This document shows, in pieces, positions 5,409 to 53,894 of a stretch of 64,000 nucleotides of DNA. The stretch is taken from contig CM068583.1 in the NCBI GenBank assembly GCA_035048485.1, positions 67,005,806 to 67,069,805 of the forward strand. The letters are read 5' to 3'. Position numbers and translations under genes: made by a program. The notes beneath the pieces are model-generated. The model ran no database searches and was not told where the DNA came from. It saw nothing but the letters and a program-made list of their open reading frames with translations. Every line of letters begins with the position of its first letter. Within the stretch, counting starts at the first letter, position 1. Source of the DNA: Pteria penguin (taxonomy: Eukaryota > Mollusca > Bivalvia > Pterioida > Pteriidae).

Positions 5409-5867
5409 GATATACTTGATATCATAACTGCTCATACATTATTCTTCATGCAATAGACGTCATGTGGACTACGCATCGTTACGTCGTATGCATACTGATT
5501 CTACTACTTACTTTATTACTCGAATAGGACACAGTCTCGGAGAAAAAATCAAAGGCCTGAAAGGCCATAAAGGCATCGAGCAGGATTGATTATCAAGCCG
5601 TTTAAAGTGCAAGTGGGACAATAAGCAACTATGTTGAATAATTTCTTCAAATTAACTATGACTGGATGCATATGACAACAAGGGTATGATAGAAGGTCTC
5701 CGGACAATTGTCCTGGCAAGCTAAACACTAGAGCTGTCCTAACGGGACAAATACCCCACGCGGCAAAAAGAAAGTTGAACATGCAATAATTCAGGAAGCT
5801 GAACATTTAGTCTTGCCAAAATCCAATCAGACATGAGTTTAGTCACCAAAGAAACAGCGACCTTGAA
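5409..5867. other. Spacer without recognised gene
   Basis: About 460 bp between two tandem repeats. An 85-codon minus-strand frame (5549-5806) has no recognisable domain and no supporting signals. Confidence 0.5.
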
Positions 5868-10795: not shown

Positions 10796-11459
10796 TTAAT
10801 CTGTAGGCATTGAACATGCTTGTCTTCTGGAACCCGAAGGATAGCGGTGGCATTGGAGTTTGGCTGGCCACGGAAGGTTGGCAAAATGTGTTCGATACAA
10901 GGGTGTACACGCTGTGCGTACTTCCTCGCAAATCTCGCTACATGGTAACGAGAGCGGGCTTTCTTGACCAGTACAAAAGGGTTTGAATGTTCCGCATAGC
11001 AGAAACAAGAAATGTGGGTGACAATTGAATATTGGTCTATATTGTTCCATTTCAAGTTGAATTCTATATACATTACTCTGACGAAACATGTTGGGTAGTG
11101 ACCCTATATTAAAGGTAAGATTCTGACAGATTTCAAACTGGTTTGGTTCACAATAGGCGAATCGCACTTCTGTCCTCGCCTGCCTCTCTCGCCGTGATAA
11201 CGGTCGTAGACATCTCCGTTGCTTCCGTCTGCGTAATCGATTACACCTAAATGCGCGAAATGGCCATGTAATGTTTAGATTCTGCATTCTGCTTTTACAT
11301 CCCCTCTTTGCCCGGAAGCAAGTCTCTCGACACGGTTTTTCGATGACGTCAGTTCCCATTCTGTTAGTTGTGCATTTCGGGAGGTATGTTCCACAAGCTA
11401 GGGTACGAAAGTCCCCAGAGCAACCGTTATCCATGAACTGCCATAATGGATCCAGAGCC
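10796..11459 (-). CDS. Secreted double Frizzled-CRD protein, exon 2 (last coding exon)
   Basis: This exon carries the rest of CRD1 and all of CRD2. The acceptor is TTACAG at 11465-11460 on the minus strand; the split Arg codon AG/G joins it to exon 1, and the stop is TAA at 10798-10796. In the joined 280-residue protein CRD1 has cysteines at 27, 35, 73, 82, 89, 103, 107, 114, 132 and 143. CRD2 has them at 163, 171, 206, 215, 222, 233, 237, 244, 263 and 275. This is the full ten-cysteine Frizzled (Fz) pattern twice, with almost identical spacing. Landmarks are WPFRAFRCNRL in CRD1 and HFLFLLCGTFKPFC, SEICEEV and LPWPAKLQC in CRD2. The linker (LRRRKQRRCLRPLSRRERQAR, split here as LRRRKQRR and SRRERQAR) is strongly basic with possible furin-type sites. 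No netrin-like, transmembrane or kinase domain follows, so it is neither a receptor nor a standard sFRP. A role in binding Wnts or other lipidated or sterol ligands is inferred from the fold only. Confidence 0.9.
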
Positions 11460-11830
11460 CTGTAATTACATCGCGTAGAATCTGTAATGTAAAAACTGGG
11501 GTTTCGTTTGAAGTTTTGTTTTGCTTTATCTTCATCTGTTTTTTTATATTTCTATTTATTTCTTATTCATTTATTTACTTTTTATTTTATTATTGTTATT
11601 ATTTTCTTTTGGTAACTGGTTTTAAATACATCGCACCTAGATTATTTACCATCAACCAAAAAAAAAAAAAAAAAGAATGATATCCACAAATTCAGTTTAA
11701 ACAGTTTACAATATAAAGGAAGGAAGTTCAAAGAAGCATTCCGATCCGGAACTTCTCTCCAAGTTTTTCAAGTTCTTTAGTACACAACATTTTATAGTCA
11801 ACATTTTTCGACTGAACAATTATAACTTAC
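11460..11830 (-). other. Intron of the double-CRD gene (371 bp)
   Basis: GTAAGT donor at 11830-11825 and TTACAG acceptor ending at 11460, minus strand. It interrupts CRD1 after its second cysteine, in phase 2. A T-rich tract on the plus strand (about 11520-11620) and a 16-nt A run (11659-11674) lie inside. Confidence 0.88.
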
Positions 11831-17755: not shown

Positions 17756-17925
17756 CTGCTCTCTATAATAATAAAAACCTACTGGGCTGACCCGAAAGTT
17801 GGGGACGATTTACGTGGTATTGGCTTACAGATCTTTAAAGTTATGAAATGGAGAAAATTATTTCGATTTTTCACAGTGATATCACAGCAGTCTGTTGTAG
17901 GTACGATAAAGTGTCTATTGGATGT

Positions 17926-18082
17926 ATGACAGCGATCAGGCGCTTCCTACTGGAAACATTCTGCCCATGTACTATATACGACCGGAATCGACATCTCAAG
18001 AGACAGGAAATGCCAAAGTCAACATGGAAACGAATGTGGAAGGAAGGAACATACGAAAATCAGGTTTTTAAGAATGTAGTAG
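17926..18082 (+). CDS. DCST2: DC-STAMP-domain protein (DCST2-like), first recognised coding exon
   Basis: Encodes the cytoplasmic amino-terminal segment from MTAIRRFLLE through CTIYDRNRHLKRQEMPKSTW to ENQVFKNVVG, then donor G/GTACGT at 18083, phase 1. Joined to exon 2 it reads VFKNVVGGFMSGMLLGVLLY, which matches the start of the first membrane segment of DCST2 proteins (VV.SVGGF pattern). DCST1/DCST2 (sneaky in flies, spe-42/spe-49 in worms) are multi-pass sperm membrane proteins needed for gamete fusion or fertilisation. The same frame is open upstream to an ATG at 17848, and an acceptor-like TGTTGTAG ends at 17900, so the true start or a 5' exon could lie upstream. I chose 17926 because conserved-looking sequence follows it directly. 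Confidence 0.72.
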
Positions 18083-18189: not shown

Positions 18190-18597
18190 TAATGGCCGAT
18201 TGTCACTTTTGATGGCTTGTCGGTATAGCTGCTGACTGTGTGTCACTTTCTCCGCTGATGGTTTGTCGGAATAACTGCTGATTGTTTGTCACCTTATCCG
18301 CTGATGGTTTGTTGGTATAGCTGCTGATTGTTTGTCACCTTATCCGCTGATGGTTTGTCGGTATAGTTGCTGATAGTTTGTCACTTTCTCCGCTGATGGT
18401 TTGTCGGTATAGTTGCTGATTGTTTGTCACCTTATCCGGTGCTGATTTATCGGTATAGCTGCTGGTTGTTTGTTACTTTAACCGCTGATTGTTTGTCGGT
18501 ATAGTTGCTGATAGTTTGTCACTTTCTCCGCTGGTGGTTTGTCGGTATAGTTGCTGATTGTTTGTTACTTTATCCGCTGATTTCGTTTGTCAATATC
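18190..18597. repeat. 46-bp minisatellite, block 1
   Basis: About eight diverged units built from TTGCTGATTGTTTGTCAC, TTATCCGCTGATGG and TTTGTCGGTATAG. It starts ~110 bp inside intron 1 and is interrupted on its right by an AT-rich insertion. Blocks 2 (18951-19236) and 3 (25057-26700) are the same array separated by inserted elements. Confidence 0.93.
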
Positions 18598-18950: not shown

Positions 18951-19236
18951 AGCTGCCGATTGTTTCTCGTTTCATCCTCTGGAAGTATGTCGGCATAGTT
19001 GCTGACTGTTTGTTACTTTATCCTCTGGAGGTTTGTCGGCATAGTTGCTGACTGTTTGTTACTTTATCCGCTGGTGGTTTGTCGACATAGTTGCTGATAG
19101 TTTGTCACTTTCTCCGCTGGTGGTTTGTCGGTATAGCTGCTGATTGTTTGTCACTTTCTCCGCTGGAGGTTTGTCGGCATAGTTGCTGACTGTTTGTTAC
19201 TTTATCCGCTGGTGGTTTGTTGGTATAGTTGCTGAA
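18951..19236. repeat. 46-bp minisatellite, block 2
   Basis: About six units of the intron 1 satellite, including variants with CCTCTGGAGG in place of CCGCTGATGG. The right end passes into non-satellite DNA at an EcoRI-like GAATTCAGGAAACG whose inverse CGTTTCCTGAAT lies ~95 bp on. Confidence 0.92.
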
Positions 19237-19656: not shown

Positions 19657-20523
19657 ATGAACAAGCTAAATATTGCATCATTGAATATACGAGGGTTGAA
19701 CTCTGATGTAAAGAGACAAAAATTTTACGAATGGCTAAGAAGTAGTAATTTTGATATAATTTTCCTACAAGAAACTCATTTTATCAATGAAAAAATTGAA
19801 TTATATGAAAGAAATTGGGAGGGTGAAGCTTATCACTCTTTTTCAGATTCACAGTTTAGTCGAGGACTCTCTATATGTGTGCGTAATGGTGCTGATATTG
19901 TTGTTTTAGATAAGCATGCATCTAATGACGGACTTATTCTTGTACTTAATCTTAAAATTGAAGATACGTTATATTCCGTAATGAATGTGTATGCACCTAA
20001 TGAAGAAAAGTCAAAACTAGCTTTCTTTGATAAGTTTAAGAAATATTTACCAAAATTTGTACATTATGATGATAATATATATATTTGTGGTGATTTTAAT
20101 TGCTATTTTGAGAAAGAAAATGGAAGGTGTGAAAGAAAATTATTATCTATACTTAAAGAGAAAAAATTAATAGATGTTTGGAAAACTCAACATGAAGAAA
20201 AAAATGGTTTTACATGGTGTGATAATTAAAATATACCTAAAAGTCGAATAGATTTTATTTTTACAAATTCTTCGAATATGGAAAAGGTAAACTTTATACT
20301 TATTAGACGTGTACCTGGTACACAAGACGATGGAAAAAGATTAACAGATCACAGATCATTAGTTCTAAAAATAAAAACACATGTGTTAAAAACAGGGCCT
20401 GGTTGTTGGAAACTTAATGTGAAATACTTAGAAGATCCAAAATATAAAGAGGGTATTAAATATATTGTTAACTCTTTAGGAAACGATGACCCTTTAATGA
20501 AATGGGAAACTTTTAAATCTTAA
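19657..20523 (+). pseudogene. LINE endonuclease domain (Tx1/L1-like), one in-frame stop, 3' truncated
   Basis: Reads MNKLNIASLNIRGLNSDVKR, then IIFLQETH, NVYAPNEE, YICGDFNCYF, SRIDFIF and RLTDHRSL, which are the ordered blocks of an EEP-type retrotransposon endonuclease with the catalytic Glu, Asp-Asn and Asp-His present. A single TAA at 20227-20229 breaks the frame after FTWCDN, and the frame resumes at once (NIPKSRIDF). No reverse transcriptase follows: the copy stops at about 20523, where the 3' end of a minus-strand LINE begins. The start is chosen at the ATG because the conserved block begins directly there. A dead element. Confidence 0.85.
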
Positions 20524-24617: not shown

Positions 24618-25056
24618 TTAAAGTTGCACTAGCTGTCATTTTCCGTATTAAAAACGAAAGCTGTAACTTTTAACCCTGGACTCTCTCCTGAAGTTAAGCC
24701 TTTATACGACATTACAATGTTATATAAGTTCGGTCAGTAGTGGAAAAAATCATTAAAATGTAATTAAATATTTACGACGTACCCGCACAAAGTCGGTAAT
24801 TTTTCTTCACCTGGCATGCTCAGTGTATCAATGACCTAGCCAACTAACGCGAGATTAGGAAACTTTCACTAACAACAACACTGGTGACGTGGACAAAGCT
24901 ATCGGAGATGAGACGTCCTCGATTAAAGGCAGAATTCGATAACATCAGGGATGAAAAAAGTCTGTGACAAAACATTTTTAGAACAAGAACAACATAGAAG
25001 TTGCACTAGAGCGATGGGAACGGGGGAGAGTTGTCAATTTACCCAAAATACTTCGC
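24618..25056 (+). mobile_element. TTAA-flanked transposon, copy 3 (left 439 bp only)
   Basis: Nearly identical to 1826-2270: TTAA, AAGTTGCACTAGCTGT, the GACGTCCTCGATTAAAG block and ACAAAATACTTCGC equivalents in order. It stops abruptly at 25056, where the 46-bp satellite resumes (TGAATGTTTATCACTTTATC). The right terminus is missing, so this copy is deleted or was cut by satellite rearrangement. Confidence 0.88.
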
Positions 25057-26700
25057 TGAATGTTTATCACTTTATCCTCTGGTGGTTTGTCGGCATAGTT
25101 GCTGATTGTTTGTTACTTTATCCGCTGGTGGTTTGTCGGAATAGTTGCTGAGTGTTTATCAATTTATCCACTGATGATTTTTCAATGTAGTTGCTGATTA
25201 GTTGTCACTTTATCCTCAGGTAGTTTGTCGGTTTAGTAGGCGATTTTTGTTACTTTATTAGCTTGTGGTTTGTCGATATAGCTGCTGATTGTCACTTTCT
25301 CCGCTGATGGTTTGTTGGTATAGTTGCTGATTGTTTGTTACTTTATCCGCTTATGATTTGTCGGTATAGTTGCTGATTGTTGGTCACCTTATCCGCTGAT
25401 TGTTTGTCGGTATAGCTGCTGATTGTTTCTCACTTAATCCGCCGATGGTTTGTCCGTATAGTTGCTGATTGTTTGTTACTTTATCCGCTGATGGTTTGTT
25501 GGTATAGCTGCTGATTGTTTGTTAATTTATCCGCTGATGGGTTGTCGGATTAGCTGCTGATTGTTTGTTACTTTATCCGCTGATTGTTTGTCGGTATAAC
25601 AGCCGATTGTCACGCTATCCGCTAATGGTTTGTCGGCATAGCTGCTAATTGTCACATTATCCGCGATGGTCTGTCGATATAGCCACTGATTGTCACTTTT
25701 TCCGCTGATGGTTTGTTGGTATAGTTGTTGATTGTTTGTTACTTTATCCGCTGATGGTTTGTTGGTATAGTTGCTGATTGTTTGTTACTTTATCCGCTGA
25801 TGGTTTGTCGGTATAGTTGCTGATTGTTTGTCACCTTATCCGCTGATGGTTTGTCGGTATAGCTGCTGATTGTTTGTCACTTTATCCGCCGATGGTTTGT
25901 CGGTATAGTTGCTGATTGTTTGTTACTTTATCCGCTGATGGTTTGTCGGTATAGTTACTCTATCCGCTGATGGTTTGTTGGTATAGTTGCTGATTGTTTG
26001 TTACTTTATCCGCTGATGGTTTGTCGGTATAGTTACTCTATCCGCTGATGGTTTGTCGGTATAGCTGCTGATTGTTTGTCACTTTATCCGCCGATGGTTT
26101 GTCGGTATAGTTGCTGATTGTTTGTTACTTTATCCGCTGATGGTTTGTCGGTATAGTTACTCTATCCGCTGATGGTTTGTTGGTATAGTTGCTGATTGTT
26201 TGTTACTTTATCCGCTGATGGTTTGTCGGTATAGTTGCTGATTGTTTGTCACCTTAATCGCTGATGGTTTGTCGGTATAGTTGCTGACTGTTTGTCACTT
26301 TATCCGCCGATGGTTTGTTGGTATAGTTGCTGATTGTTTGTTACTTTATCCGCCGATGGTTTGTCGGTATAGTTGCTGATTGTTTGTTACTTTATCCGCT
26401 GATGGTTTGTCGGTATAGCTGCTGATTGTTTGTCACCTTATCCGCTGATGGTTTGTCCGTATAGCTGCTGATTGTTTGTCACTTTATCCGCCGATGGTTT
26501 GTCGGTATAATTGCTGATTGTTTGTTAATGTATCCGCTGATGGTTTGTCGGTATAACTGCTGATTGTTTGTTACTTTATCAGCTGATTGTTTGTCGATAT
26601 AACAGCCGATTGTCACGCTATCCGCTGATGGTTTGTCGGCATAGCTGCTAATTGTCACATTATCCGCGATGGTCTGTCGGTATAGCTGCTGTTGTTTCTT
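25057..26700. repeat. 46-bp minisatellite, block 3 (main block)
   Basis: About 36 units. The middle part (25700-26500) is the most homogeneous. A ~16-bp-deleted variant ending GTATAGTTACTCTATCC recurs (25952, 26028, 26155), showing multi-unit duplications. Confidence 0.95.
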
Positions 26701-27311
26701 TCTCCAGACACTTAGGATTTCCCCCATCAAAACATGGCCACCGCCATGGTATAAGTGAAATTTCTGGTCTCGTTTAAACACATGTACAGAAATATATTTA
26801 TATTCCAACAACGGTTCGCTTAAATGAAGGTACTAACAACTACTGCACTTTAATATCAAAATTTCCTCACTTGTCATATATTCGTAGTTTAAGTCCATTT
26901 TCGTGTTGTAGATCAAATTGTAGATCAAATTTGAATAAACATTATAATTAATATGAATTTTGCTATCAGAGTGATAAATTTAAAGTATTATTATTCTACC
27001 ATAGCTATCCCCTGATATCACATTTTTTTAAACAGAGGTTAGTAACCCGTTGAGGTAAAAATTACATCTAGACACAGCGGAAAATATAACGTAAATACAA
27101 TGTATAAGAATTGTTTTAGCGTTATGTGCTTCACTGGTGTGTATTAGCAGTAGGGAATTGGTAATTTTTTCCATTCCCTACTGACAATACTTACGAATGA
27201 AGCACAAAAATATAAAAACAATCCATAAATATGTGTGACTTCAATGGTGTCATTAATTATAAAAATTCAACTAGAATTAAATAGTAATGGTATCATCTGT
27301 AAAACTGAAGT
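26701..27311. other. Intron 1 spacer with a hairpin
   Basis: About 600 bp between two satellites. No exon recognised. An imperfect inverted repeat centred on 27165 is described separately. Confidence 0.5.
27126..27205. repeat. Imperfect 33-bp-arm hairpin
   Basis: Arms start GTGCTTCA and end CAGTAGGGAAT on the left, with inverse counterparts ATTCCCTACTG and TGAAGCAC on the right. About 23 of 33 positions pair. Weaker pairing (ATTGTTTT/AAAACAAT) extends outwards. Probably an old MITE. Confidence 0.6.
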
Positions 27312-27520
27312 ATGTTTTAGTATTGCTAGGTATGTTTTAGTATTGCTAGGTATGATTTAGTATTGCTAGGTATGATTTAGTATTGCTAGTTATGTTTTAG
27401 TATTGCTAGGTATGTTTTAGTGTTGTTAAGTATGTTTTAGTATTGCTAGGTATGATTTAGTATTGCTAGATATGATTTAGTTTTGCTAGGTATGTTTTAG
27501 TATTGCTAGGTATGATTTAG
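27312..27520. repeat. 20-bp minisatellite, left part
   Basis: About ten units of GTATGTTTTAGTATTGCTAG with A/T variants (GTATGATTTAG). Each unit contains a donor-like GTATGT and an acceptor-like TTTTAG. A MITE at 27521 splits the array. The right part is 27967-28090. Confidence 0.95.
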
Positions 27521-27966
27521 CAATCTCCAAAGCAGAGTTACGGTCCTTGCACTCCCTTTAATCTCTACTAACTACTGAAAGTATTCCCTAGTCGGAAGGC
27601 AAAAAATATAGACTGTTTTGCGTGTTTTGGGAAAAAATGTCATCGTATTCAAGTTATCTTGGCAAAAATTAGACAATGAGGTGCAAATGATAGTGTTATA
27701 GACAAAATATATTACCTAGGTTTGCTGATTTGTACGCTGAGAAAATATAGTGCGGTATAAATTCGGGGTTTATTTCATGTAGAAGCCCGATTAAAACTCC
27801 ATGTAACATGGTAAATGCTTTAAATTTAACTAATAAAGCCGTTGAATACCAAGTCATGTCGTCTAGAGGCAAAACTCTGATTTTACAAGAATCTTGTAAA
27901 ACCTGAGACGTTGGCAGAGGTGTGTGTGTGGATTGTAAAAGAACGACAACTCTGCTTTGGAGATTG
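27521..27966. mobile_element. 446-bp MITE with 19-bp inverted ends and 9-bp target duplication
   Basis: Ends CAATCTCCAAAGCAGAGTT and AACTCTGCTTTGGAGATTG are perfect inverse repeats. ATGATTTAG flanks both sides (27512-27520 and 27967-27975). Because that 9-mer is also part of the satellite unit, the duplication needs caution, but removing the element plus one copy restores an ordinary 20-bp unit. A 9-bp duplication fits Mutator-like elements (Merlin makes 8-9 bp). There is an internal hairpin TTTTACAAG/CTTGTAAAA and no coding capacity. Confidence 0.85.
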
Positions 27967-28090
27967 ATGATTTAGTATTGCTAGGTATGTTTTAGTAATG
28001 CTAGGTATGATGTAGGTATGTTTCAACATTGCTAGGTATGTTTAAGTATTGCTAAATATGTTTTAGTATTGCCAGGTATGTTTAGTGTTA
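27967..28090. repeat. 20-bp minisatellite, right part
   Basis: About six degenerate units of the array, ending ~90 bp before exon 2 of the DCST2-like gene. Confidence 0.88.
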
Positions 28091-28180: not shown

Positions 28181-28363
28181 GATTTATGAGTGGAATGTTA
28201 CTTGGTGTGCTTCTCTACTTCATGATGGTGTTTCAGATGGATTATACCTCTAGGAATGCTTTTATTATAGGCACACTATTGGGACCAGTCTTGACTGTGG
28301 GACTAGCATTCTCCACAAATATCCGTTGTATTATTTTGCTGATGATGCCGCAACTATTCTCAA
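28181..28363 (+). CDS. DCST2: DCST2-like, exon 2 (first membrane segments)
   Basis: Acceptor AATATTTCAG, then 183 nt in phase 1 to phase 1, and donor A/GTAAAT at 28364. It encodes GFMSGMLLGVLLYFMMVFQM, then SRNAFIIGTLLGPVLTVGLA, then NIRCIILLMMPQLFS. These are two hydrophobic helices followed by the positively marked turn and ..LLLPQ.FS motif seen in DCST proteins. The exon keeps an open frame only between its splice sites plus a short read-through. Assignment to DCST2 rather than DCST1 rests on the match over exons 2-5 together, recalled from the family and not aligned. Confidence 0.82.
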
Positions 28364-29013
28364 GTAAATATCATTCTGAAAGAAAATGCACCAGACATTC
28401 TGGCAGATTAAGTTCTACTAGAGTAGAATATGATCTTATATATAGGTGTCTATTTATATATTCCGAGGACATCCTTATCTTAACGGTAGATTAATTCTCG
28501 GTCTTTTATGGGCAGTAATACACTTAAAATTTTAAATTTGAGACTTCTATAAGGTTTCGAATGAGTGTCGTGTCTGGAAAGCTTTATAGTCATATTGACA
28601 ACCTTTGCTGTGATTTCTTACAAGACAGCTCTGGCTGCTCTTTAATGGATAAAGGTAGGGACGTCAACACTACTTCAGCTATTCCCTATGAATTGCATAT
28701 AAAGTTTTCTTAATTTTCGTGTAGATCCGAATACAAACATTTCCCCTGTCTTCTGATTGGCTGCGACTTTCAAAATATATCGAGAAACTGTAGCTTGACC
28801 TTATAAAGAGATACACATTTACAAAGGTTCTTTTGATATCGCAAACGACTGGTATATTATTGTTCTAATCATCATCAGGTATCAATTTTGTTTATAGTTT
28901 GAATATAACTAAACTTTTCTGTCTTTTTAGCATTGGTTTACTTTGTTTTTAATGTATATCTTGTATAATGAAAGTGATTGTATTGTAGTATATTTTCTTT
29001 CTTTTATATTTAG
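28364..29013 (+). other. DCST2-like intron 2 (650 bp), ordinary
   Basis: GTAAAT donor; acceptor TTCTTTCTTTTATATTTAG. The only intron of this gene in the window without a minisatellite. No repeat recognised. Confidence 0.75.
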
Positions 29014-29184
29014 GCAAAGGACGGACTTTTCTTTTACTATATTGCATGATTTTGGTCATGAATCATCCAGTAAAAAACTTTAACAAAAATATTGTCGTTA
29101 TGTCGGAAAGTTCAACATGTGGACAGCAGATGGCACTAAACCAAACCAAGGAATTGATGAGGAATTCGCAGTCACCACTGGCGG
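29014..29184 (+). CDS. DCST2: DCST2-like, exon 3 (membrane helix and first extracellular stretch)
   Basis: Encodes SKGRTFLLLYCMILVMNHPV, then KNFNKNIVVMSESSTCGQQM and ALNQTKELMRNSQSPLA. The pattern (QGRTLLL helix, conserved Cys, LNQT glycosylation-like site, ..PL at the exon end) matches DCST2 closely. Donor G/GTAAGT at 29185, phase 1. The last ~15 exonic bases (AGTCACCACTGGCGG) are repeated as part of every unit of the 38-bp array that follows. If splicing used a later unit's donor, the protein would gain repeat-encoded residues; read through, this frame stays open only to 29580. Confidence 0.85.
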
Positions 29185-32100
29185 GTAAGTATCAACCAGA
29201 AACATATTGTCACCGCTGGCCGATATGTATCAACCAGCAAGATACAGCCACCACTGGCGAGTATGTATCAACCAAAAACATATTGTCACCACTGGCGAGT
29301 ATGTATCAACCAGTAAGATACAGCCACCACTGGCAAGTATGTATCAACCAGAAAGATATTGTCACCACTGGCGGGTATGTATCAATCAGCAAGATACAGT
29401 CACCACTGGCGAGTATGTATCAACTTACAAGTTACAGTCACTACTGGCGTGTATGTATCAACCAGCAAGATACAGTCACCACTGGCGGTATGTATCAACC
29501 AGCAAGATACAGTTACCACTGGCGGGTATGTATCAACCAGAAAAATACAGTCACCACTGGCGGGTATGTATCAACTAGCTAAATACAGTCACCACTGGCG
29601 GGTATGTATCAACTAGCAAAATACAGTCACCACTGGCGGGTATGTATCAACCAGAAAGATATTGTCACCACTGGCGGGTATGTATCAACCAGCAAGGTAC
29701 AGTCACCACTGGCGGGTATGTATCAACCAGAAAAATATTGTCACCACTGGCAGGTATGTATCAACCAGCAAAATACAGTCACCACTGGCGGGTATGTATC
29801 AACCAGCAAGATACAGTCACCACTGGCGGGTATGTATCAATCAGAAAAATATTGTCACCACTGGCGAATATGTACCAACTAGCAAGGTACAGTCACCACT
29901 GGCGGGTATGTATCAACCAGAAAGATACAGTCACTACTGGCGGGTATGTATCAACCAGCAAGATACAGTCACCACTGGCGAGTATGTATCAACCAGAAAG
30001 ATATAGTCACCACTGGTGGGTATGTTTCAACCAGCAAGATACAGTCACCACTGGCGGGGATGTATCAACCAGCAAGATACAATCACCATTGGCGAGTATG
30101 TATCAACCAGAAAGATATTGTCACCACTGGCGAGTATGTATCAACCAGAAAGATATTGTCACCACTGGCGGGTATGTATCAACCAGCAAGATACATTCAC
30201 CACTGGCGGGTATGTATCAACCAGAAAGATATTGTCACCACTGTCGGGTATGTATCAACCAGCAAGATACAATCACCACTGGCGGGTATGTATCAACCAG
30301 AAAGATATTGTCACCACTGTCGGGTATGTATCAACCAGCAAGATACAATCACCACTGGTGGGTATGTATCAACCAGCAAGATATTGTCACCACTGGCGTG
30401 TATGTATCAATCACCAAGATACAATCACCACTGGCGGGTATGTATCAACAAGCAAGATACAGTCACCACTGGCAGGTATGTATTAACCAGCAAGATACAG
30501 TCACCACTGGCGAGTATGTATCAACCAGCAAGATACAGTCACCACTGGCGAGTATGTATCAACCAGCAAGATACAGACACCACTGATGGGTATGTATCAA
30601 CCAGCAAGATACAATCACCACCTCTGGGTATGTATCAACCAGCAAGATACAGTCACCACTGACGGGTATGTATCAACCAGCAAGGTACAGTCAGCATTGG
30701 CGGGTATGTATCAACCAGCAAGATACAGTCACCACTGGCGAGTATGTATCAACCAGCAAGATACAGTCACAACTGGCGGGTATGTATTAACCAGCAATAT
30801 ATTGTCACCACTGGCGTGTATGTATCAACCAGTAAAATATCGTCACCACTGGCGGGTATGTATCAACCAGCAAGTTACAGTCACAACTGGCGGGTATGTA
30901 TTAACCAGCAAGATATTGTCACCACTGGCGTGTATGTATCAATCAGCAAGATACAATCACCACTGGCGGGTATGTATCAACAAGCAAGATACAGTCACCA
31001 CTGGCGTGTATGTATCAACCCTTAAAATATCGTCACCACTGGCGGGTATGTATCAACCAGCAAGATACAGTCACCACTGGCGTGTATGTATCAACCCGTA
31101 AAATATCGTCACCACTGGCGGGCATGTATCAACAAGCAAGATACAGTCACCACTGGCGTGTATGTATCAACCCTTAAAATATTGTCACCACTGGCGGGTA
31201 TGTATCAACCAGCAAGATACAGTCACCACTGGCGTGTATGTATCAACCCGTAAAATATCGTCACCACTGGCGGGTATGTATCAACCAGCAAGATACAGTC
31301 ACCACTGGCGTGTATGTATCAACCCGTAAAATATCGTCACCACTGGCGGGTATGTATCAACAAGCAAGATACAGTCACCACTGGCGTGTATGTATCAACC
31401 CGTAAAATATCGTCACCACTGGCGAGTATGTATCAACCATCAAGTTACACTCACCACTGGCGGGTATGTATCAATCAGCAAGATACAATCACCACTGGCG
31501 GGTATGTATCAACAAGCAAGATACAGTCACCACTGGCAGGTATGTATTAACCAGCAAGATACAGTCACCACTGGCGAGTATGTATCAACCAGCAAGTTAC
31601 AGTCACCACTGGCGGGTATGTATCAACCAGCAAGATACAGGCACAACTGGCGGGTATGTATTAACCAGCAAGATATTGTCACCACTGGCGTGTATGTATC
31701 AACCAGCAAGTTACAGTCACCACTGGCGGGTATGTATCAACCAGCAGGATACAGTCACCACTGGCGGGTATGTATCAACCAGCAAGTTACAGTCACCACT
31801 GGCGGGTATGTATCAACCAGCAAGATATTGTCACCACTGGCGTGTATGTATCAACCAGCAAGTTACAGTCACCACTGGCGGGTATGTATCAACCAGCAGG
31901 ATACAGTCACCACTGGCGGGTATGTATCAACTAGCAAAATACAGTCACCACTAGCGGGTATGTATCAACCAGCAAGATACAGTCACCACTGGCGGGTATG
32001 TATCAACTAGCAAAATACAGTCACCACTGTCGGGTATGTATCAACCAGCAAGATACAGTCACCACTAGCGAGTATGTATCAACCAGAAAGATATTGTCAC

Positions 32101-34650
32101 CACTGGCGGGTATGTATCAACCAGCAAGGTACAGTCACCACTGGCGGGTAAGTATCAATCAGAAAAATATTGTCACCACTAGCGGGTTGGTATCAACCAG
32201 CAAAATACAGTCACCACTGGCGGGTATGTATCAACCAGCAAGGTACAGTCACCACTGGCGGGTATGTATCAACCAGAAAAATATTGTCACCACTGGCGGG
32301 TATGTATCAACCAGCAAGATACGGTCACCACTGGCGAGTATGTATCAACCAGCAAGATACAGTCACCACTGGCGGGTATGTATCAACCAACAAGATAGAG
32401 TCACCACTGGCGGGTATGTATCAACCAGCAAGATATTGTCACTACTGGCGGGTATGTATCAACCATCAAGATGCAATCACCACTGGCGGGTATGTATCAA
32501 CCAGCAAGATACAGTCAGCACTACTGGGTATGTATCAACCAGCAAGATACAGTCACCACTGGCAAGTATGCATCAACCAGCAAGATACAGTCACCACTGG
32601 CGGGTATGTATCAACCAGCAAGATACAGTCACCACTGGTGGGTATGTATCAACCAGCAAGATACAGTCACCACTGGCGAGTATGTATCAACCAGAAAAAT
32701 ATTGTCACTACTGGTGGGTATGTATCAACCAGCAAGATACAGTCACCACTGGCAAGTATCTATCAACCAGCAAGATATTGTCACCACTGGCGGGTATGTA
32801 TCAACCAGCAAGATACAGTCACCACTGGCGAGTATATATCAACCAGCAAGATACAGTCACCACTGGCGAGTATGTATCAACCAGCAAGATACAGTCACCA
32901 CTGGCGGGTATGTATCAACCAGCAAGATATTGTCACTACTGGCGGGTATGTATCAACCATCAAGATGCAATCACCACTGGCGGGTATGTATCAACCAGCA
33001 AGATACAGTCACCACTAGTGGGTATGTATCAACCAGCAAGATACAGTCACCACTGGCAAGTATGTATCAACCAGCAAGATACAGTCACCACTGGCGGGTA
33101 TGTATCAACCAGCAAGATACAGTCACCACTGGTGGGTATGTATCAACCAGCAAGATACAGTCACCACTGGCGAGTATGTATCAACCAGCAAGATATTGTC
33201 ACCACTGGTGGGTATGTATCAACCAGCAAGATACAGTCACCACTGGCAAGTATCTATCAACCAGCAAGATATTGTCACCACTGGCGGGTATGTATCAACC
33301 AGCAAGATACAGTCACCACTGGCGAGTATGTATCAACCAGCAAGATACAGTCACCACTGGCGAGTATGTATCAACCAGCAAGATACAGTCACCACTTGTG
33401 GGTATGTATCAACCAGCAAGATGCTGTCACCACTGGCGGGTATGTATCAACCAGGAAGATACAGTCACAACTGGCGGGTATGTATTAACCAGCAAGATAT
33501 TGTCACCACTGGCGGGTATGTATCAACCAGCAAGATACAGTCACCACTAGCGAGTATGTATCAACCAGAAAGATATTGTCACCACTGGCGGGTATGTATC
33601 AACCAGCAAGGTACAGTCACCACTGGCGGGTAAGTATCAACCAGAAAAATATTGTCACCACTGGCGGGTTGGTATCAACCAGCAAAATACAGTCACCACT
33701 GGCGGGTATGTATCAACCAGCAAGGTACAGTCATCACTGGCGGGTATGTATCAACCAGAAAAATATTGTCACCACTGGCGAGTATGTATCAACCAGCAAG
33801 ATACAGTCACCACTGGCGAGTATGTATCAACCATCAAGATACAGTCACCACTGGCGGGTATGTATCAACCAGCAAGATACGGTCACCACTGGCGAGTATG
33901 TATCAACCAGCAAGATACAGTCACCACTGGCGGGTATGTATCAACCAGCAAGATAGAGTCACCACTGGCGGGTATGTATCAACCAGCAAGATATTGTCAC
34001 TACTGGCGGGTATGTATCAACCATCAAGATGCAATCACCACTGGCGGGTATGTATCAACCAGCAAGATACAGTCACCACTAGTGGGTATGTATCAACCAG
34101 CAAGATACAGTCACCACTGGCAAGTATGTATCAACCAGCAAGATACAGTCACCACTGGCGGGTATGTATCAACCAGCAAGATACAGTCACCACTGGTGGG
34201 TATGTATCAACCAGCAAGATACAGTCACCACTGGCGAGTATGTATCAACCAGCAAGATATTGTCACTACTGGTGGATATGTATCAACCAGCAAGATACAG
34301 TCACCACTGGCAAGTATCTATCAACCAGCAAGATATGGTCACCACTGGCGGGTATGTATCAACCAGCAAGATACAGTCACCACTGGCGAGTATATATCAA
34401 CCAGCAAGATACAGTCACCACTGGCGAGTATGTATCAACCAGCAAGATACAGTCACCACTTGTGGGTATGTATCAACCAGCAAGAGGCTGTCAGCACTGG
34501 CGGGTATGTATCAACCAGCAAGATGCAGTCACCACTGGCGGGTATGTATCAACCAGCAAGATATTGTCACCACTGGCGAGTATGTATCAACCAGCAAGAT
34601 ACAGTCACCACTGGCGGGTATGTATCAACCAGCAAGATACAGTCACGTTA
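29170..34650 (+). repeat. 38-bp minisatellite seeded at the exon 3 / intron 3 junction (~144 units)
   Basis: Unit: GTATGTATCAACCAGCAAGA followed by TACAGTCACCACTGGCGG. The first unit is the real splice junction itself (AGTCACCACTGGCGG/GTAAGTATCAACCAG). So each unit holds ~23 bp of intron start plus ~15 bp of exon end, and shows an intact GTATGT donor-like site. GTAAGT is seen again at 32148 and 33630. Sub-variants (GAAAGATATTGTC, CCCGTAAAATATCGTC, CTAGCAAAATACAGTC, CAAGTTACAGTC) define domains. Blocks are re-duplicated at offsets that are exact multiples of 38: the GTAAGT/GTTGG marker pair recurs 1482 bp later (39 units), and the ATCAAGATGCAATC marker recurs at 494 and 1064 bp (13 and 28 units). 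The consensus lacks TAA, TAG and TGA, so long frames are open in all three forward phases. Confidence 0.97.
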
Positions 34651-34860: not shown

Positions 34861-34962
34861 GCATTATAGGAACTGTGGGTGGTGTCTTAAAATCCCTGAA
34901 GGAATTCGCCGATAACGTGCGAAAATCTTTCAAAGCCTTAAAAAGTGCCATTGAAGAAATAG
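34861..34962 (+). CDS. DCST2: DCST2-like, exon 4 (amphipathic extracellular helix)
   Basis: Acceptor TTTCATTGTAG, 102 nt, phase 1 to phase 1, donor G/GTATGA at 34963. It encodes GIIGTVGGVLKSLKEFADNV and RKSFKALKSAIEEI, a lysine-rich amphipathic helix like the KEVADRVRKFF segment of DCST2 that follows the conserved NQT and PL motifs. Joined to exon 3 it reads SPLAGIIGTVGG with no break. It is flanked by satellite-filled introns on both sides. Confidence 0.85.
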
Positions 34963-35016: not shown

Positions 35017-35122
35017 TAATAGCTTGCAAATTCGATTTGAGACATTCACAGTTGATACATGAGGAAAAGCAATAGCTTGCTAATCTGACTTGATACATTT
35101 ACAGTTGGTACATTTGGAATTC
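35017..35122. repeat. Outlying units of the 53-bp minisatellite
   Basis: About two diverged units (TAGCTTGCTAATCTGACTTG, ATACATTTACAGTTGGTACA) just inside intron 4, separated from the main array by ~280 bp of unique DNA (35123-35402) in which I see no exon. Confidence 0.8.
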
Positions 35123-35402: not shown

Positions 35403-37257
35403 TATTTACAGTTAGAAAGAGAAAAGTCTTGCTAATCTGACTTGACACATTTACAGTTGGTACATGAGGAAGTGTAATGTCTTGTTAATCTGACTTGATA
35501 CATTTACTGTTGGTACATGAGGAAGTGTAATGTCTTGTTAATCTGACTAGATACATTTACTGTTTGTACATGAGGAAATGTAATGTCTTGTTAATCTGAC
35601 TTGATACATTTACTGTTGGTACATGAGGAAGTGTAATGTCCCGTTAATCTGACTTGATACATTGACTGTTAGTACATGAGGAAGAGTAATGTCTTGTTAA
35701 TCTGACTTGATACATTTACTGTTGGTACATGAGGAAGAGTAATGTCTTGTTAATCTGACTTGATACATTTACTGTTGGTACATGAGGAAGAGTAATGTCT
35801 TGTTAATCTGACTTGATGCATTGACTGTTGGTACATGAGGAAGTGTAATGTCTTGTTAATCTGACTTGATACATTTACTGTTGGTACATGAGGAAGTGTA
35901 ATGTCTTGTTAATCTGACTTGATGCATTGACTGTTGGTACATGAGGAAGTGTAATGTCTTGTTAATCTGACTTGATACATTTACTGTTGGTACATGAGGA
36001 AGTGTAATGTCTTGTTAATCTGACTTGATACATTTACTGTTGGTACATGAGGAAGTGTAATGTCTTGTTAATCAGACTTGATACATTGACTGTTAGTACA
36101 TGAGGAAGAGTAATGTCTTGTTAATCTGACTTGATACATTTACTGTTGGTACATGAGGAAGTGTAATGTCTTGTTACTCTGACTAGATACATTTACTCTT
36201 CGTACATGAGGAAGTGTAATGTCTTGTTAATCTGACTTGATACATTGACTGTTAGTACATGAGGAAATGTAATGTCTTGTTAATCTGACTTGATACATTT
36301 ACTGTTGGTACATGAGGAAGTGTAATGTCTTGTTGATCTGACTAGATACATTTACTGTTGGTACATGAGAAAGTGTAATGTCTTGTTAATCTGACTTGAT
36401 ACATTGACTGTTGGTACATGAGGAAGTGTAATGTCTTGTTAATCTGACTTGATACATTTACTGTTGGTACATGAGGAATAGTAATGTCTTGTTAATCTGA
36501 CTTGATACATTTACTGTTGGTATGTGAGGAAGTGTAATATCTTGTTAATCTGACTTGATACATTGACATAGGTACATGAGGAAGTGTAATGTTTTGTTAA
36601 TCTGACTTGATACATTTATTGTAGCTACATGAGGAAGAGTAATGTCTTGTTAATCTGACTTGATACATTTACTGTTGGTACATAAGGAAGTGTAATGTCT
36701 TGTTAATCTGACTTGATACATTTACTGTTGGTACATGAGGAAGTGTAATGTCTTGTTAATCTGATTTGATACATTGACGTTGGTACATGAGGAAGTGTAA
36801 TGTCTTGTTAATCTGACTAGATACATTTGCTGTTGGTACATGAGGAAGTGTATTATCTTTTTAATCTGACTTGATACATTTACTGTTGGTACATGAGGAA
36901 GTGTAATGTCTTGTTAATCTGACTTGATACATTTACTGTTGGTGCATGAGGAAGAGTAATGTCTTGTTAATCTGACTTAATACATTTACTGTTGGTACAT
37001 TATGAAGTGTAATGTCTTGCTAATCTGACTTGATACAGTTACAGTTGGTACATTAGGAAGAGTAATGTCTTGCTAATCTGACTTGATACATTTACTGTTG
37101 GTACATGAGGAAGTGTAATGTCTTGGTAATCTGACTTGATACATTTACTGTTGGTAATAAAGTCTTGCTAATCTGATTTGATACATTTACAGTTGGTACA
37201 CTAGGAATAGTAATGTCTCGCTAATCTGATTTGATACATTTACAGTTGGCACATTAG
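35403..37257 (+). repeat. 53-bp minisatellite seeded at the intron 4 / exon 5 junction (~35 units)
   Basis: Unit: GAAGTGTAATGTCTTGTTAA, TCTGACTTGATACATTTACT, GTTGGTACATGAG. The last unit runs into the real acceptor: GATACATTTACAGTTGGCAC, ATTAG, then exon 5 starting GAAGAGTAAGGGCTTGGCTA, ATCAG. So each unit contains a copy of the AG boundary (ACATGAG/GAAG) and of the first ~24 exon bases, with a 1-bp indel. Units nearest the exon (37020-37257) keep ACAGTTGG like the junction, whereas central units read ACTGTTGG. Confidence 0.95.
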
Positions 37258-37366
37258 GAAGAGTAAGGGCTTGGCTAATCAGTATAACACAGACATGTAA
37301 TGATAAAATGGGTAAACCATACCAGAAATGCGTCAAAGTATTTGATGAAGCCTTTTCAAACTGCAA
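37258..37366 (+). CDS. DCST2: DCST2-like, exon 5 (cysteine-containing extracellular segment)
   Basis: The acceptor ACATTAG is chosen because it alone preserves phase 1 from exon 4 and gives EIGRVRAWLISITQTCNDKM, then GKPYQKCVKVFDEAFSNCK. The C(N)(D/S)..G.PY.KC..VFD.A...C pattern is the hallmark cysteine segment of DCST2 proteins. The alternative acceptor CTAATCAG at 37283 would give the wrong phase. Donor AA/GTAAGT at 37367, phase 2. The first ~24 coding bases are homologous to the 53-bp satellite unit to their left. Confidence 0.83.
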
Positions 37367-37860: not shown

Positions 37861-38822
37861 GGCATCAGTATACTGGCCTTTCATTATCATACTTCTTATC
37901 AATACAATGTGATGTTAGTATAGTGGCCTTCCATTATCGTACAACTTATCCATGCCATTTGATGTCAGTTTACTGGTCTTCCATTATCGTACTACTTATC
38001 AATACCATGTGATATCAGTATACTATACTGGCCTTCCATTATCGTACTACTTATCCATGCCATGTGATGTCAGTATACTGGCCTTCCATTATCGTACAAC
38101 TTATCCATGACATGTGATGTCAGTGCACTGGCCTTCCATTATCGTACAACTTATCCATGACATGTGATGTCAGTGTACTGGCTTTCCAGTATCGTACTAC
38201 TTAGCCATGCCATGTGATATTTGTATACTGCCCTTCCATTATCGTACAACTTATCCATGCCATTGGATGTCAGTATACTGGCCTTCCATTAACGTTCTAC
38301 TTATCCATGTCATCTGAATTCAGTATACTGGCCTTCCATTATCGTACTACTTATCCATACCATGTAATATCAGTATACTGGCCTTCCATTAACGTACTAC
38401 TTATCCATACCATGTGATATCAGTATACTGGCCTTCCATTAACGTCCTACTTATCCATACCATGTGATATCAGTATACTGGCCTTCCATTAACATACTAC
38501 TTATCCATACCATGTGATATCAGTATACTGGCCTTTCATTAACGTACTACTTATCCATACCATGTGATATCAGTATACTGTCCCTCCATTAATGTAATAC
38601 TTATCTATATCATGTGATGTCAGTATACCGGTCTTCCATTATCGTACTACACATCTATGCCCTGTGATGTCAATATACTGGCATTCCATCCTCGTACAAA
38701 TTATTCATGGCATATGATGTCAGTATACTGTCCTTCCATTATCGTACTACTTATCCATGTCATCTGAAGTCAGTATACTGGCCTTCCATTATCGTACTAC
38801 TTATCCATGCCATGTTATAGAT
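37861..38822. repeat. 50-bp minisatellite, block 1 (~19 units)
   Basis: Unit: GATATCAGTATACTGGCCTT, CCATTATCGTACTACTTATC, CATACCATGT. Units near 38380-38560 are the most alike. Block 2 (44091-44850) is the same family in the same orientation. Confidence 0.95.
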
Positions 38823-43180: not shown

Positions 43181-44090
43181 GATAAAGAACAAACATCAAT
43201 TCAATATGCATTACTTCCCTCGTGTATGCGATGTTAATTAATTTGCTCCAATCAACATACACGTGTATCAATAATAGTCTTACGAATGATAGGGATAAAA
43301 AGCCGACATAAATCCAGTAAGTTTATTGCGTAATACGGACGACCGTTTCTGGAATGTAGTTTTCACTTTTTACTGACCACAGGTGACAACCTGGTTTTAC
43401 ACCTGTTACACAATCCATTTTCTGTTAGCACAAGCTACAACTCCACATAGGGACATGGATCGAAGTTACAATCATGGGAATAATCAGAAACTTGTGTCTC
43501 TGAAATAATTTAATTTTTTTTTCTAGATCAGTACTAAACAGTCAATTATTCATAAAAAAATGACTCGCATTATAAGCGATAAAATTGGATCTACATGTAT
43601 TTCCGTTTGCTTTAGGTTATGTAAAGAATGTTACTAAGACAACCTATGGCAAATAGTCTGTATTTCAGACATAATCACTGTCAAGATCGTAAAACAACTT
43701 AATAAAGATACAAATGGTGAAAAAAAAGAAAAGAATCAGTAGGTATTATCAGCTGATGCAAGGACTTGGATACGAGGCTAGGGGCAAGCGCCATAAACTG
43801 AGAATATACCTATGTCAATTTTTTCATTTTGATTTATTCCCTTATCAAACCTTCAAATAAGCTGTCATGCAGAATGGTTTATTTCTATTTATTGATAGTA
43901 TAAAACTCAATGAAATCCAACTCCCAGTTCTTCATTCACTGTTGAACAGAATAATTTGAAATTTGATTTAAGTATTTTCTCAGTTTATGGCGCCGGACCT
44001 AGGCTGATGATAGCAATATTCAGTACCTTAATGGCGTATAGTCACGTGATCTGAAGGTGGCCGCATCAGTGTAAAACACCAATCAACCAA
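43181..44090. other. Intron 5 spacer before satellite block 2
   Basis: About 900 bp. Contains GGCGCC-bearing pieces near 43788 and 43990 (AAGCGCCATAAACTGAGAA and TTTATGGCGCCGGACC) that form a loose inverted pair ~200 bp apart, perhaps the ends of another small element. No exon recognised. Confidence 0.4.
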
Positions 44091-44850
44091 CTACATATCC
44101 ATACCATGTGATGTCAGTATATTGGCCTTTCATTATCGTACTACCTATCCATGACATCTGATGTCAGTATACTTGCCGTCCATTAACGTACTACTATCCA
44201 TGTCATGTTATATCAGTATACTGGCCTTCCATTATCGTACTACTTATACATACCATGTGATATCAGTATACTGGCCTTCCATTATCGTACTACTTATCCA
44301 CACCATGTAATATCAGTATACTGGCCTTCCATTATCGTACTACTTATCCATACCATGTGATTTCAGTATACTGACCTTCCATTAACGTACTACTCATCCA
44401 TACCATGTGATATCAGTATACTGGCCTTCAATTATCATACTACTTATCCATACCATGTAATATCAGTATACTGGTCTCCATTATTGTACTACTTAGCCAT
44501 GCCATGAGATGTTAGTATACTGACCTTCCATTAACATACTACTTATCCATGTCATTTGAAATCAGTATACCCGCCTTCCATTAACGTACTACTTATGTAT
44601 ACAATGTCAGGCATGTGATATTAGTATACTAGCCTTCCATTATCGTACTACTTAGCCATTCCATGTGATGTCAGTATACTGGCCTTCCATTATCGTACTA
44701 CTTATCTATATCATGTGATATCAGTGTTCTGGCCCTCCATTATCGTACTACTTATCCATGCCATTTGATATCATTATACTGGCCCTCCAGTAAGTTCATA
44801 CTTATCCATGCCATGTTACTGGCTTGCCATAGATGTACTACGTATCATGT
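44091..44850. repeat. 50-bp minisatellite, block 2 (~15 units)
   Basis: Same unit as 37861-38822, more diverged at its right end. It runs to within ~20-45 bp of the exon 6 acceptor: the last degenerate unit (CCATGTTACTGGCTTGCCAT) passes into CATGTGTATTTTCTTTTTCAG. Confidence 0.93.
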
Positions 44851-44871: not shown

Positions 44872-44948
44872 GCGTTTGCTTGGTTGGTTCCTCGAATGGA
44901 TATGCCATATTGTTACCGGAGTCAAAGCACTGTGTAATGTAGCTAGAG
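44872..44948 (+). CDS. DCST2: DCST2-like, exon 6 (helix after the cysteine segment)
   Basis: Acceptor TTTTCTTTTTCAG, 77 nt, phase 2 in and phase 1 out, donor G/GTTCGT at 44949 (acceptable but weak). It encodes (K)RLLGWFLEWICHIVTGVKAL then CNVAR. DCST2 has a hydrophobic stretch with a Cys-containing end (..LALCGLA.L) at this point, so position and character agree even though identity is low. Later exons carrying the DC-STAMP-like domain proper and the RING-like tail were searched for by eye in 45-64 kb and not found, so the gene either continues beyond the window or is truncated. Confidence 0.7.
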
Positions 44949-51118: not shown

Positions 51119-52151
51119 TCACAACAATACAGAAGGATGGGTTTTACTAATGTGTTTTTCTAGGAGTTTACATGGATTATTAAGTCCAATAGAGGTTTTT
51201 ATTTTGAAGTATGCTTTACGGGCTTTTTCCATTAGGGTTGTAACCCCCAAGTTAAAATTGCCATTGTTTTTCAGAATCACTCCAAGGTAACAGAACTTGG
51301 TTACTGTCTCAATGGTTTTGTCATTGTAATTAAATGGGTTAATAAATGATTTTCCATTGGCGTTAAAAATAAGTACTTTCGATTTTGTAGCATTAACCTC
51401 TAATTTCCAACAAACACAGAATTCATATAATTTATCAAGACATTTTTGTAATCCAGTAGGGCTTGTGGATAATAGAACCAGGCCGTCTGCATATAATAAG
51501 CAGCTGATGTTCAAATTGCCAATTACAATTGGATCGGGGTTGTCATCTTGTATTTCACTAACAATATTATTGATGAATATGTTAAACAGAGCTGGGCTTA
51601 ACACGTCTCCCTGCTTGACACCGCGGTTTGATAGACAGGGTTCACTTAAACCATCTATAAATTTGATTCTGCTCTTTGTATTTACATACAGGAACTGGAT
51701 AACGTAATAAATCTTTTTTTGGGATACTATGTTTTAGAAGTAAGTAGAATAGCCCTGATCTCTAAACAGTATCATATGCTTTCTTCAGATCAATGAAGGC
51801 GGTAAAAACTTTCTTTTTCTCTTTTTTTTTATAGTGACTTATAATTGATTTAAAAGTAAAAATATGATCTGACGTACGACGTTTTTCCCTGAGATCTATT
51901 TGGTGTTTACTAATAAGATCATTTGCATTAACAAACTCAAGTAGTCTAGCATGAATTATTTTGTTGAACAGTTTGTCTAAATTTGAACTAATTGAAATGC
52001 CTCTATAATTATTAGGGCCCATTCTACTTCTCTTCTTATGCAATGGGACCAAGACATTTTCATTCCATAATTTAGGGAAAACACCACAATCAAAAATGTA
52101 GTTAAATTTTAGTAATGGGTTTGTTATGGCATTTAAACCATATTTTATCAT
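51119..52151 (-). pseudogene. Reverse transcriptase domain of the 6.6-kb LINE
   Basis: Blocks in order: VFPKLWNENVLVPLHKKRSR, NNYRGISISSNLDKLFNKII, AFIDLKKAYDTV (first catalytic Asp; frameshift near 51762), GVKQGDVLSPALFNIFIN, then CLLYADGLVLLS, where the usual YADD is YADG, so one catalytic Asp is lost. NATKSKVLIF and FCYLGVILKNNGNF are the usual blocks after the palm. Inactive by frameshift and by the Asp-to-Gly change. Confidence 0.85.
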
Positions 52152-52824
52152 CTCATTAGAGATTAAGTCGTCAGCTGAACTCTTGCCAATTTTAAGAGAC
52201 TTAACAGCCTTGATTATCTCATCTTTACCAATCTTACAATTAAGGTTATTATGGCTATTACTAGATTCAAGCTCACACTCGAGATTTTCTAAATTTTTTA
52301 TAACCTTAGATTGGAAGGCATCAAGGGTATTGTCACTTGTGTTTAGTAATTTGAAATGTTGGATTAATTCATTATGAGGAATTGAGTCATTTACATTATT
52401 AGGGGAAGAATTAAGTTTGTTAATAAGCTTCCAAAATGTCTTTGGATTCTTTTCATTTCTAAGAAAAAAGAGGAGTTACCGGCTCAGTTATGTGGCAGAA
52501 GTCACCATGGATCTATACAATACATGAATATAAATAATATAATAGAACATTTAATAGTACTTATGTCCTGACAAATCTTTTGTTTATATAGTTTTTGTTC
52601 ATGTTCACATTTCCGTCTGAATTTCGCCTTTAGAGAGTAAAAAGATTGTCTATAGCTATCATTAAAAGGAAATTTATTAACAAGTTATCCATAACTTTTG
52701 ACCATGTTACGTAAATCGGTACAAGATTCTGTAAACCAGGGTTTTCTGATTTTTTTTTTTGTACAATTCCTTTTAGATTTAATGTTTTTAAATACAAATT
52801 TAGCAGAGTTTTTGGATACTTCAA

Positions 52825-53894
52825 TTATAATAGAATTGAATGAGTCTTACCAGTCAAAGGAGACAATAATTGTTCTTGAAAATCATAAAAATGATGTGAA
52901 TAAATGCTACATACAATTGGACAATGATCTGTAAAAGCCGAGAATTGTAACACTTTGAAAAGACCAATCTGATTTAGCAGTTCCGTAGATGATGAAGTAT
53001 AATCTACAAGACAACACCCATTATATGTAATACATGAAGGTTTACCATGTAGGTCACCAATAGTTCTTCCATTTACAATTCTCAAGCCCGATTCTTTACA
53101 TAAGTTTAGCAAACTTTTACCACTATTATTAATACGTTTGTGGTCCTGGTTGTTTCTTGACATCATATGGTCTATTTTATAATGACTGTCATCTGAAACA
53201 CTATGATCAGATTGATCATTTAAGACAAAATCAGCATTGGTATTCGTGTAGGCATTAAAATCACCCAGAATCATTATATCACCAAATTTACTGTATTTTT
53301 CTATGCCCTGAAGCAAATGGGCATACACTGACTCTTGGTCAGGTACATTGCCTGAATTATTTTCAGGAGAAATATATACAATAGCAAGGTATAAATCCCT
53401 AGAAAAATTAAAGAAACTACAATCTAGTTTTAATCATAATATATCTGTATGGTCATTTTGTAATATTTTAATACCTTTTACTGAACAACATTTAGCATAT
53501 ACACAGATACCACCAGAGAGTTGACGTGCTTTCTTCCGTTTTTTTTTCTTGAGCTTGATGAGACAAGTTCGAAATTTGGTATATGGAGATGTTGGTTAGA
53601 TTCACTACCACACCATGTTTCAACAAAACTGAGAATATGCATTTTTCTGTTTACATTTAAAAAGTGATTATCAACTAATTTGTCAGCCCTTAGCCCTTCA
53701 ATATTCCACATTGCTATATTAAGCAAGGGCTGGTTGAGAGGATTCAAGTACCTTTTTCTCTTCATGACATAATATCGTTGTATATAAGGATGTTGGGTAA
53801 AACAACAAGATATTAGGATAATTTCAAGAGAGGTCAATGATATTATTATTAGTGTAACAACAAATTCCTTTGTGGTGTCACAAAAGTTACACAT
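52825..53894 (-). pseudogene. Endonuclease domain of the 6.6-kb LINE
   Basis: First part (53894-53478) has LLNIAMWNIEGLRADKLVDN and ILSFVETWCG (the Asn and Glu blocks). The second part (53328-52825), after a break, has IMILGDFNAYTNTNADF, SLLNLCKESGLRIVNGRTIG, CLVDYTSSS and FSAFTDHCPIV. The SDH block reads TDH, so catalytic Asp-His is kept. Breaks between the parts make it non-functional. It is the closest relative here of the fragment at 1-810. Confidence 0.83.

Follow-up and report, generated by a model that had tools for sequence, protein, structure and literature searches.

Intronic minisatellites probably seeded by splice junctions in a DCST2-like gene of the bivalve Pteria penguin

How does an intron come to be filled with copies of the splice junction at which it begins? 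The question is raised by intron 3 of a DCST2-like gene of the bivalve Pteria penguin, located in a stretch of 64,000 nucleotides (nt) of assembly GCA_035048485.1 (contig CM068583.1, positions 67,005,806 to 67,069,805, forward strand), hereafter the window. This intron is 5676 nt long, of which 5462 nt belong to a tandem array of a 38-bp unit (array 1) that starts within exon 3. An initial sequence-only reading had described this array and overlooked a second junction-derived array of the same gene, composed of 53-bp units in intron 4 (array 2). We consider it very probable that both are splice-junction-seeded intronic minisatellites of the type named 'mirages' in lancelets, and that they are functionless by-products. 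All exon boundaries are predicted from sequence and refer to one haplotype (Table 1).

The 38-bp unit consists of the last 16 nt of exon 3 (29169-29184, CAGTCACCACTGGCGG) followed by the first 22 nt of intron 3, and the first unit is the true exon 3/intron 3 junction, with an intronic half beginning GTAAGT. The junction origin and the approximately 144 copies proposed earlier were thereby retained, while the proposed split of ~15 exonic and ~23 intronic bases was corrected to 16 + 22. Wraparound alignment yielded 144 full units and a 7-nt stub, CAGTCAC (34640-34646), with a single indel across the array, a 1-nt deletion in unit 8 (29473; counting the first unit as 0). The units comprise 87 distinct sequences with a mean pairwise identity of 0.89, and of the 38 positions of their consensus three depart from the true unit, one of them inside the donor hexamer. 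As the junction scores of the 38- and 53-bp units included intronic flank that is itself array sequence, an exon-only control was run separately. In this control all 16 nt of the exonic half of the 38-bp unit matched exon 3, the match ending exactly at the exon boundary; a score this high was not reached by any of 1000 shuffled units on any of the six exons.

A donor-like site in each unit, as claimed before, was largely recovered: GT is retained in 139 of 144 units when the true donor is included and in 138 of the 143 further copies (decoys), and the donor hexamer reads GTATGT in 128 units, GTAAGT in three and otherwise in 13. GTATGT is most frequently preceded by GCGG (66), GCGA (25), GCGT (12) or GTGG (11). 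No donor is better than the true GTAAGT, as had been stated, but it is not unique: the same hexamer occurs further in, at units 78 and 117 (first unit = 0), so the true donor is tied for best. Read-through in the frame of exon 3 indeed stops at 29580, and the open reading frame (ORF) 28989-29579 was confirmed. The RNA fold of 29150-29450 was no better than that of shuffled sequences (z -1.26), and no Rfam match was found within the window.

Array 2 is the mirror case. Its unit contains 19 intronic nt and ~34-35 nt of the start of exon 5, and the last of its 35 units is the true intron 4/exon 5 acceptor. The exon-only match begins at the first base of exon 5, with only one of 1000 shuffled units scoring equally high. 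Tandem units thus cross the predicted exon-intron boundary in both arrays, with the exonic part flush with the exon edge. The acceptor AG is present in four of the 35 units (35438, 37026, 37174 and, as the true acceptor, 37227) and lacking in 31, and 29 of the 34 decoys carry a TGA in the exon 5 frame. Over the first 40 positions compared, the consensus differs from the true unit five times, once in the AG; the amplified unit had already lost its splice signal. The AG loss, like the change from GTAAGT to GTATGT in array 1, is a single event that was amplified, and therefore no statistic was derived from it. Nor did we take the altered donor or acceptor of the amplified units as a sign of selection, as chance could give single-position changes among 3/38 and 5/40 differences.

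The gene itself was reconstructed by joining six exons on the + strand in frame and without a stop, giving a chain of 296 amino acids (aa). Against 5.8 billion proteins, this chain had one match, a scallop 'DC-STAMP domain-containing protein 2-like, partial' (E 6.5e-83; 51% identity across 91% of the chain). A profile search, in which only the 7995 candidates with most words in common were scored, added a mussel protein (55% identity across 61%); full-length relatives lie outside the length window of the protein search. By tblastn, the scallop protein matched all six exons and the mussel protein four of them. The mussel relative matches Pfam DC_STAMP with 62.9 bits, while the six-exon chain, from which the later exons are missing, remains below the Pfam cut-off for DC_STAMP (PF07782) and every other family. 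Pfam and NCBIfam matches of the exon 2-4 chain were all sub-threshold, a PDB sequence search returned no relevant match, and exons 7 onward were looked for within the window and not found. The in-frame chain and the identity with scallop and mussel bear out the earlier assignment as DCST2-like, and the in-frame joining together with the flush exon-only match places the end of exon 3 where it had been proposed. By homology, the gene is a DCST2 relative over its N-terminal membrane half, akin to a sperm-egg fusion gene; such a function in P. penguin is predicted from homology alone.

Table 1. Coordinates of the predicted exons and junction-derived arrays within the window
Feature	Position	Strand	Remarks
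Exon 1, DCST2-like gene	17848..18082	+	ATG 17848, or 17926 by scallop alignment; donor GTACGT
Exon 2, DCST2-like gene	28181..28363	+	Predicted, in-frame chain and tblastn
Exon 3, DCST2-like gene	29014..29184	+	3' end CCA CTG GCG G, then GTAAGT
Array 1, 38-bp donor-junction array	29169..34646	+	Tandem Repeats Finder (TRF): period 38, 144.2 copies, 88% matches
Exon 4, DCST2-like gene	34861..34962	+	Predicted, in-frame chain and tblastn
Two detached 53-bp-unit copies	35035..35115	+	Upstream of array 2, outside the 35 units; both ACAG
Array 2, 53-bp acceptor-junction array	35426..37273	+	TRF limits; 35 units segmented from 35438
Exon 5, DCST2-like gene	37246..37366	+	Predicted, in-frame chain and tblastn
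Exon 6, DCST2-like gene	44872..44948	+	Last exon found; donor GTTCGT weak, uncertain

Whether the exon or the array came first can be read from the relatives. The residues at the exon 3/4 junction are S-P-L-A-G here, A-P-I-A-G in scallop and S-P-M-A-G in mussel, aligned gap-free, and exon 5 starts with LGRVRAWL here, IGRVLSWL in scallop and LGRALKWL in mussel. P-x-A-G at the former and G-R and W-L at the latter are conserved across the three bivalve proteins. Because scallop and mussel share residues across the junctions, the exon came first, a direction that depends on these two relatives; by this comparison both units have an exonic half of old coding sequence, and the junctions gave rise to the arrays. 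Together with the 16/16 exon match, this upholds the claim that the satellite was made from the exon 3/intron 3 junction. As to the mechanism, a short tandem duplication would have copied the exon 3/intron 3 boundary. As the outermost donor still defined exon 3, the copy would have fallen inside the intron and been harmless, and unequal exchange or slippage could then have expanded it to 144 units, with a mirror-image process at the intron 4/exon 5 acceptor. The stub CAGTCAC is identical to the opening 7 nt of the unit. Two such copies, in direct orientation and 38 nt apart, may have initiated the first duplication, although a partial last unit would look alike.

Array 1 contains duplicated blocks: runs of 15 units reappear 28 and 41 units away and a run of 13 units reappears 13 units away, each time with 7 or 8 mismatches. 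This is what unequal exchange would leave, and it would fit the haplotype length instability that is a trait of mirages. Divergence is somewhat higher near the coding junction (mean of 3.5 changes in the first ten units, 2.3 in the last ten; Spearman -0.24, p 0.004, with units that are not independent).

The same blocks could also point to an assembly artifact, i.e. an inflated copy number or a misplaced array, since the duplication of a haplotype could make ~15-unit blocks recur almost identically. We regard this as very unlikely, given 87 different sequences among 144 units, a lone 1-nt indel in the entire array, a left side that is continuous with a coding exon and a second array of like type in the next intron. 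That continuity with the exon would equally be expected if the direction were reversed, with an older intron satellite supplying the end of exon 3 and the splice site moving into the first unit; the letters of exon and unit would then coincide anyway. Scallop and mussel, however, encode P-x-A-G in place and without gaps, the start of exon 5 keeps its G-R and W-L, and no copy of the 38-bp unit was found outside its array within the window at ≤ 5 mismatches in a 22-mer, which renders this direction extremely improbable.

Pairing energies of the decoys with U1 were calculated with ViennaRNA, assuming a U1 5' end that may not be that of P. penguin. The true exon 3 donor is predicted to pair at -13.3 kcal/mol, the commonest decoy at -9.5 and the gene's five other predicted donors at -3.0 to -6.7; two of 143 decoys equal the true donor and none exceeds it. 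In array-poor intron stretches, 0.4% of 534 GTs are predicted to pair as well as the commonest decoy. Counting sites of -8 or stronger, the + strand of array 1 has 98, including the true donor (17.9 per kb), and the - strand one; outside the arrays the densities are 0.66 and 0.62 per kb on the + and - strand. Under our preferred origin as a by-product, splicing would proceed from the first donor, and the transcripts made from an occasional decoy would mostly be nonsense. Several results weigh against this account: 91 of the 143 decoys outpair all five other donors of the gene, so that their being silent cannot be taken for granted; in array 1, distance from the first unit does not change systematically with position (Spearman -0.07, p 0.41); and array 2 has a weak trend in divergence (0.30, p 0.075). 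A functional ladder could account for the strong pairing and for the GT kept in nearly all decoys: decoys would be used appreciably and would regulate the gene, either via frameshifted transcripts subject to nonsense-mediated decay or via isoforms with extra residues. It had been proposed that the frame is restored at every third unit, which holds for the consensus; in the real array, three decoys alone (3, 6 and 8) would allow translation without a stop as far as the exon 6 end, with gains of 38, 76 and 101 residues. The remaining 140 of 143, a count that takes in the five units without GT, run into a stop before that point. Furthermore, in conservation the hexamer of the donor comes 6th among 38 windows and GT 11th among 38 dinucleotides, which makes no case for selection on the decoys. 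As lancelet cases are moreover described as splicing normally in PMC3087553 and PMC3902484, we consider a functional ladder improbable. Alternatively, the array might be a selected U1 platform, with ~97 decoys of strong predicted pairing in sense orientation within a single intron of a sperm-type gene. If so, U1 bound in series to the pre-mRNA might prevent polyadenylation from occurring too early or hold the transcript back until the right stage. Neither AATAAA nor ATTAAA occurs inside the 5.5-kb array. This hypothetical role seems to us highly unlikely.

Boundary-spanning intron repeats have been described in lancelets. PMC3087553 and PMC3902484 report mirages in Adh3, troponin C, the globins BflGb6 and BflGb9, and PGBD5 (the troponin C and PGBD5 cases being added by PMC3902484), with regular splicing undisturbed. 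The units given there measure 10-72 bp in Adh3, about 150-160 bp in the globins, and 60 and 108 bp in PGBD5, with 6 and 3 repeats in BflGb6. As in these cases, the units presented here cross an exon-intron boundary, their exonic half is coding and many of them keep AG/GT; this last feature applies to array 1 by its GT and to array 2 only in the four units with AG, one being the true acceptor. A further feature of the lancelet cases is seen in BflGb6, in which boundary units escape homogenization. Since both arrays show the testable defining features of a mirage, they are placed in that known kind. Judged by sequence, what appears new is the lineage (a bivalve), the great length of 144 and 35 units, and the donor and acceptor types in one gene.

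Other systems are less close. A minisatellite of the human gene IFI6 (6-16), said to have been described by Turri et al. in 1995, reportedly contains multiple splice donors, lies at an intron edge, has short units and has several of its donors used. The unit here is longer, at 38 bp, and its donors are predicted. As cited in PMC3087553, the Rogers model explains intron gain via tandem duplication of AG/GT proto-splice sites. Splice-site sequence is likewise tandemly duplicated here, but two existing introns were lengthened and no new intron was seen. In abalone, intron 3 of a TSSK1-like gene contains a long minisatellite with a 27-bp unit (PMC6905558), hence also a long intronic minisatellite in a molluscan testis gene, although a boundary-spanning unit is not stated in the available text of that paper. 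No molluscan mirage was found in the literature searched, mostly at the level of titles and abstract openings.

Other repeats occur in the same gene and beyond it. A 46-bp array lies in separate pieces in intron 1 (18210-18581, 18974-19235 and 25055-26697), with an endonuclease ORF of the long interspersed nuclear element (LINE) type at 19657-20226 between two of them, which suggests an older array split by insertions. Intron 1 also contains a donor-like 20-bp array (GTATGTTTTAGTATTGCTAG; 27310-27520 and 27967-28083) that matched no known junction and is broken by a ~446-bp element bounded by inverted ends of 28 nt (27521-27548 / 27939-27966), which probably represents a transposable-element insertion. 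In intron 5, two arrays about 5 kb apart share one 50-bp unit (37865-38815 and 44090-44816), the second reaching close to the exon 6 acceptor. A compound 24-bp array (ACAGTTACTGGACCAAAATCAGCG) at 4338-5410 has a longer superimposed period near 147-171 bp. As candidate junction copies, the 46-, 20- and 24-bp arrays scored no better than shuffles (p 0.69, 0.305 and 0.245; 200 shuffles). The 50-bp array matched the exon 6 junction at p 0.015, but entirely within the intron, and this match is therefore the array's own tail. On the - strand lie a 251-aa open frame (10799-11551), in which the frizzled cysteine-rich domain is matched twice (Fz, PF01392, 115 bits), and remains of a LINE-type retroelement with reverse transcriptase and endonuclease matches (51122-53433).

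If borne out, boundary-spanning repeats would not be confined to lancelets, and a single bivalve gene would have both donor- and acceptor-derived arrays, at copy numbers well above those of the lancelet globins. Donor-derived units, which kept GT, and acceptor-derived units, which lost AG, may meet different fates; with one array of each kind, this contrast is observed here without amounting to a rule. The arrays would represent one route of intron growth, and about 140 near-identical donors in series, of which the first alone is correct, would offer a natural test of splice-site choice.
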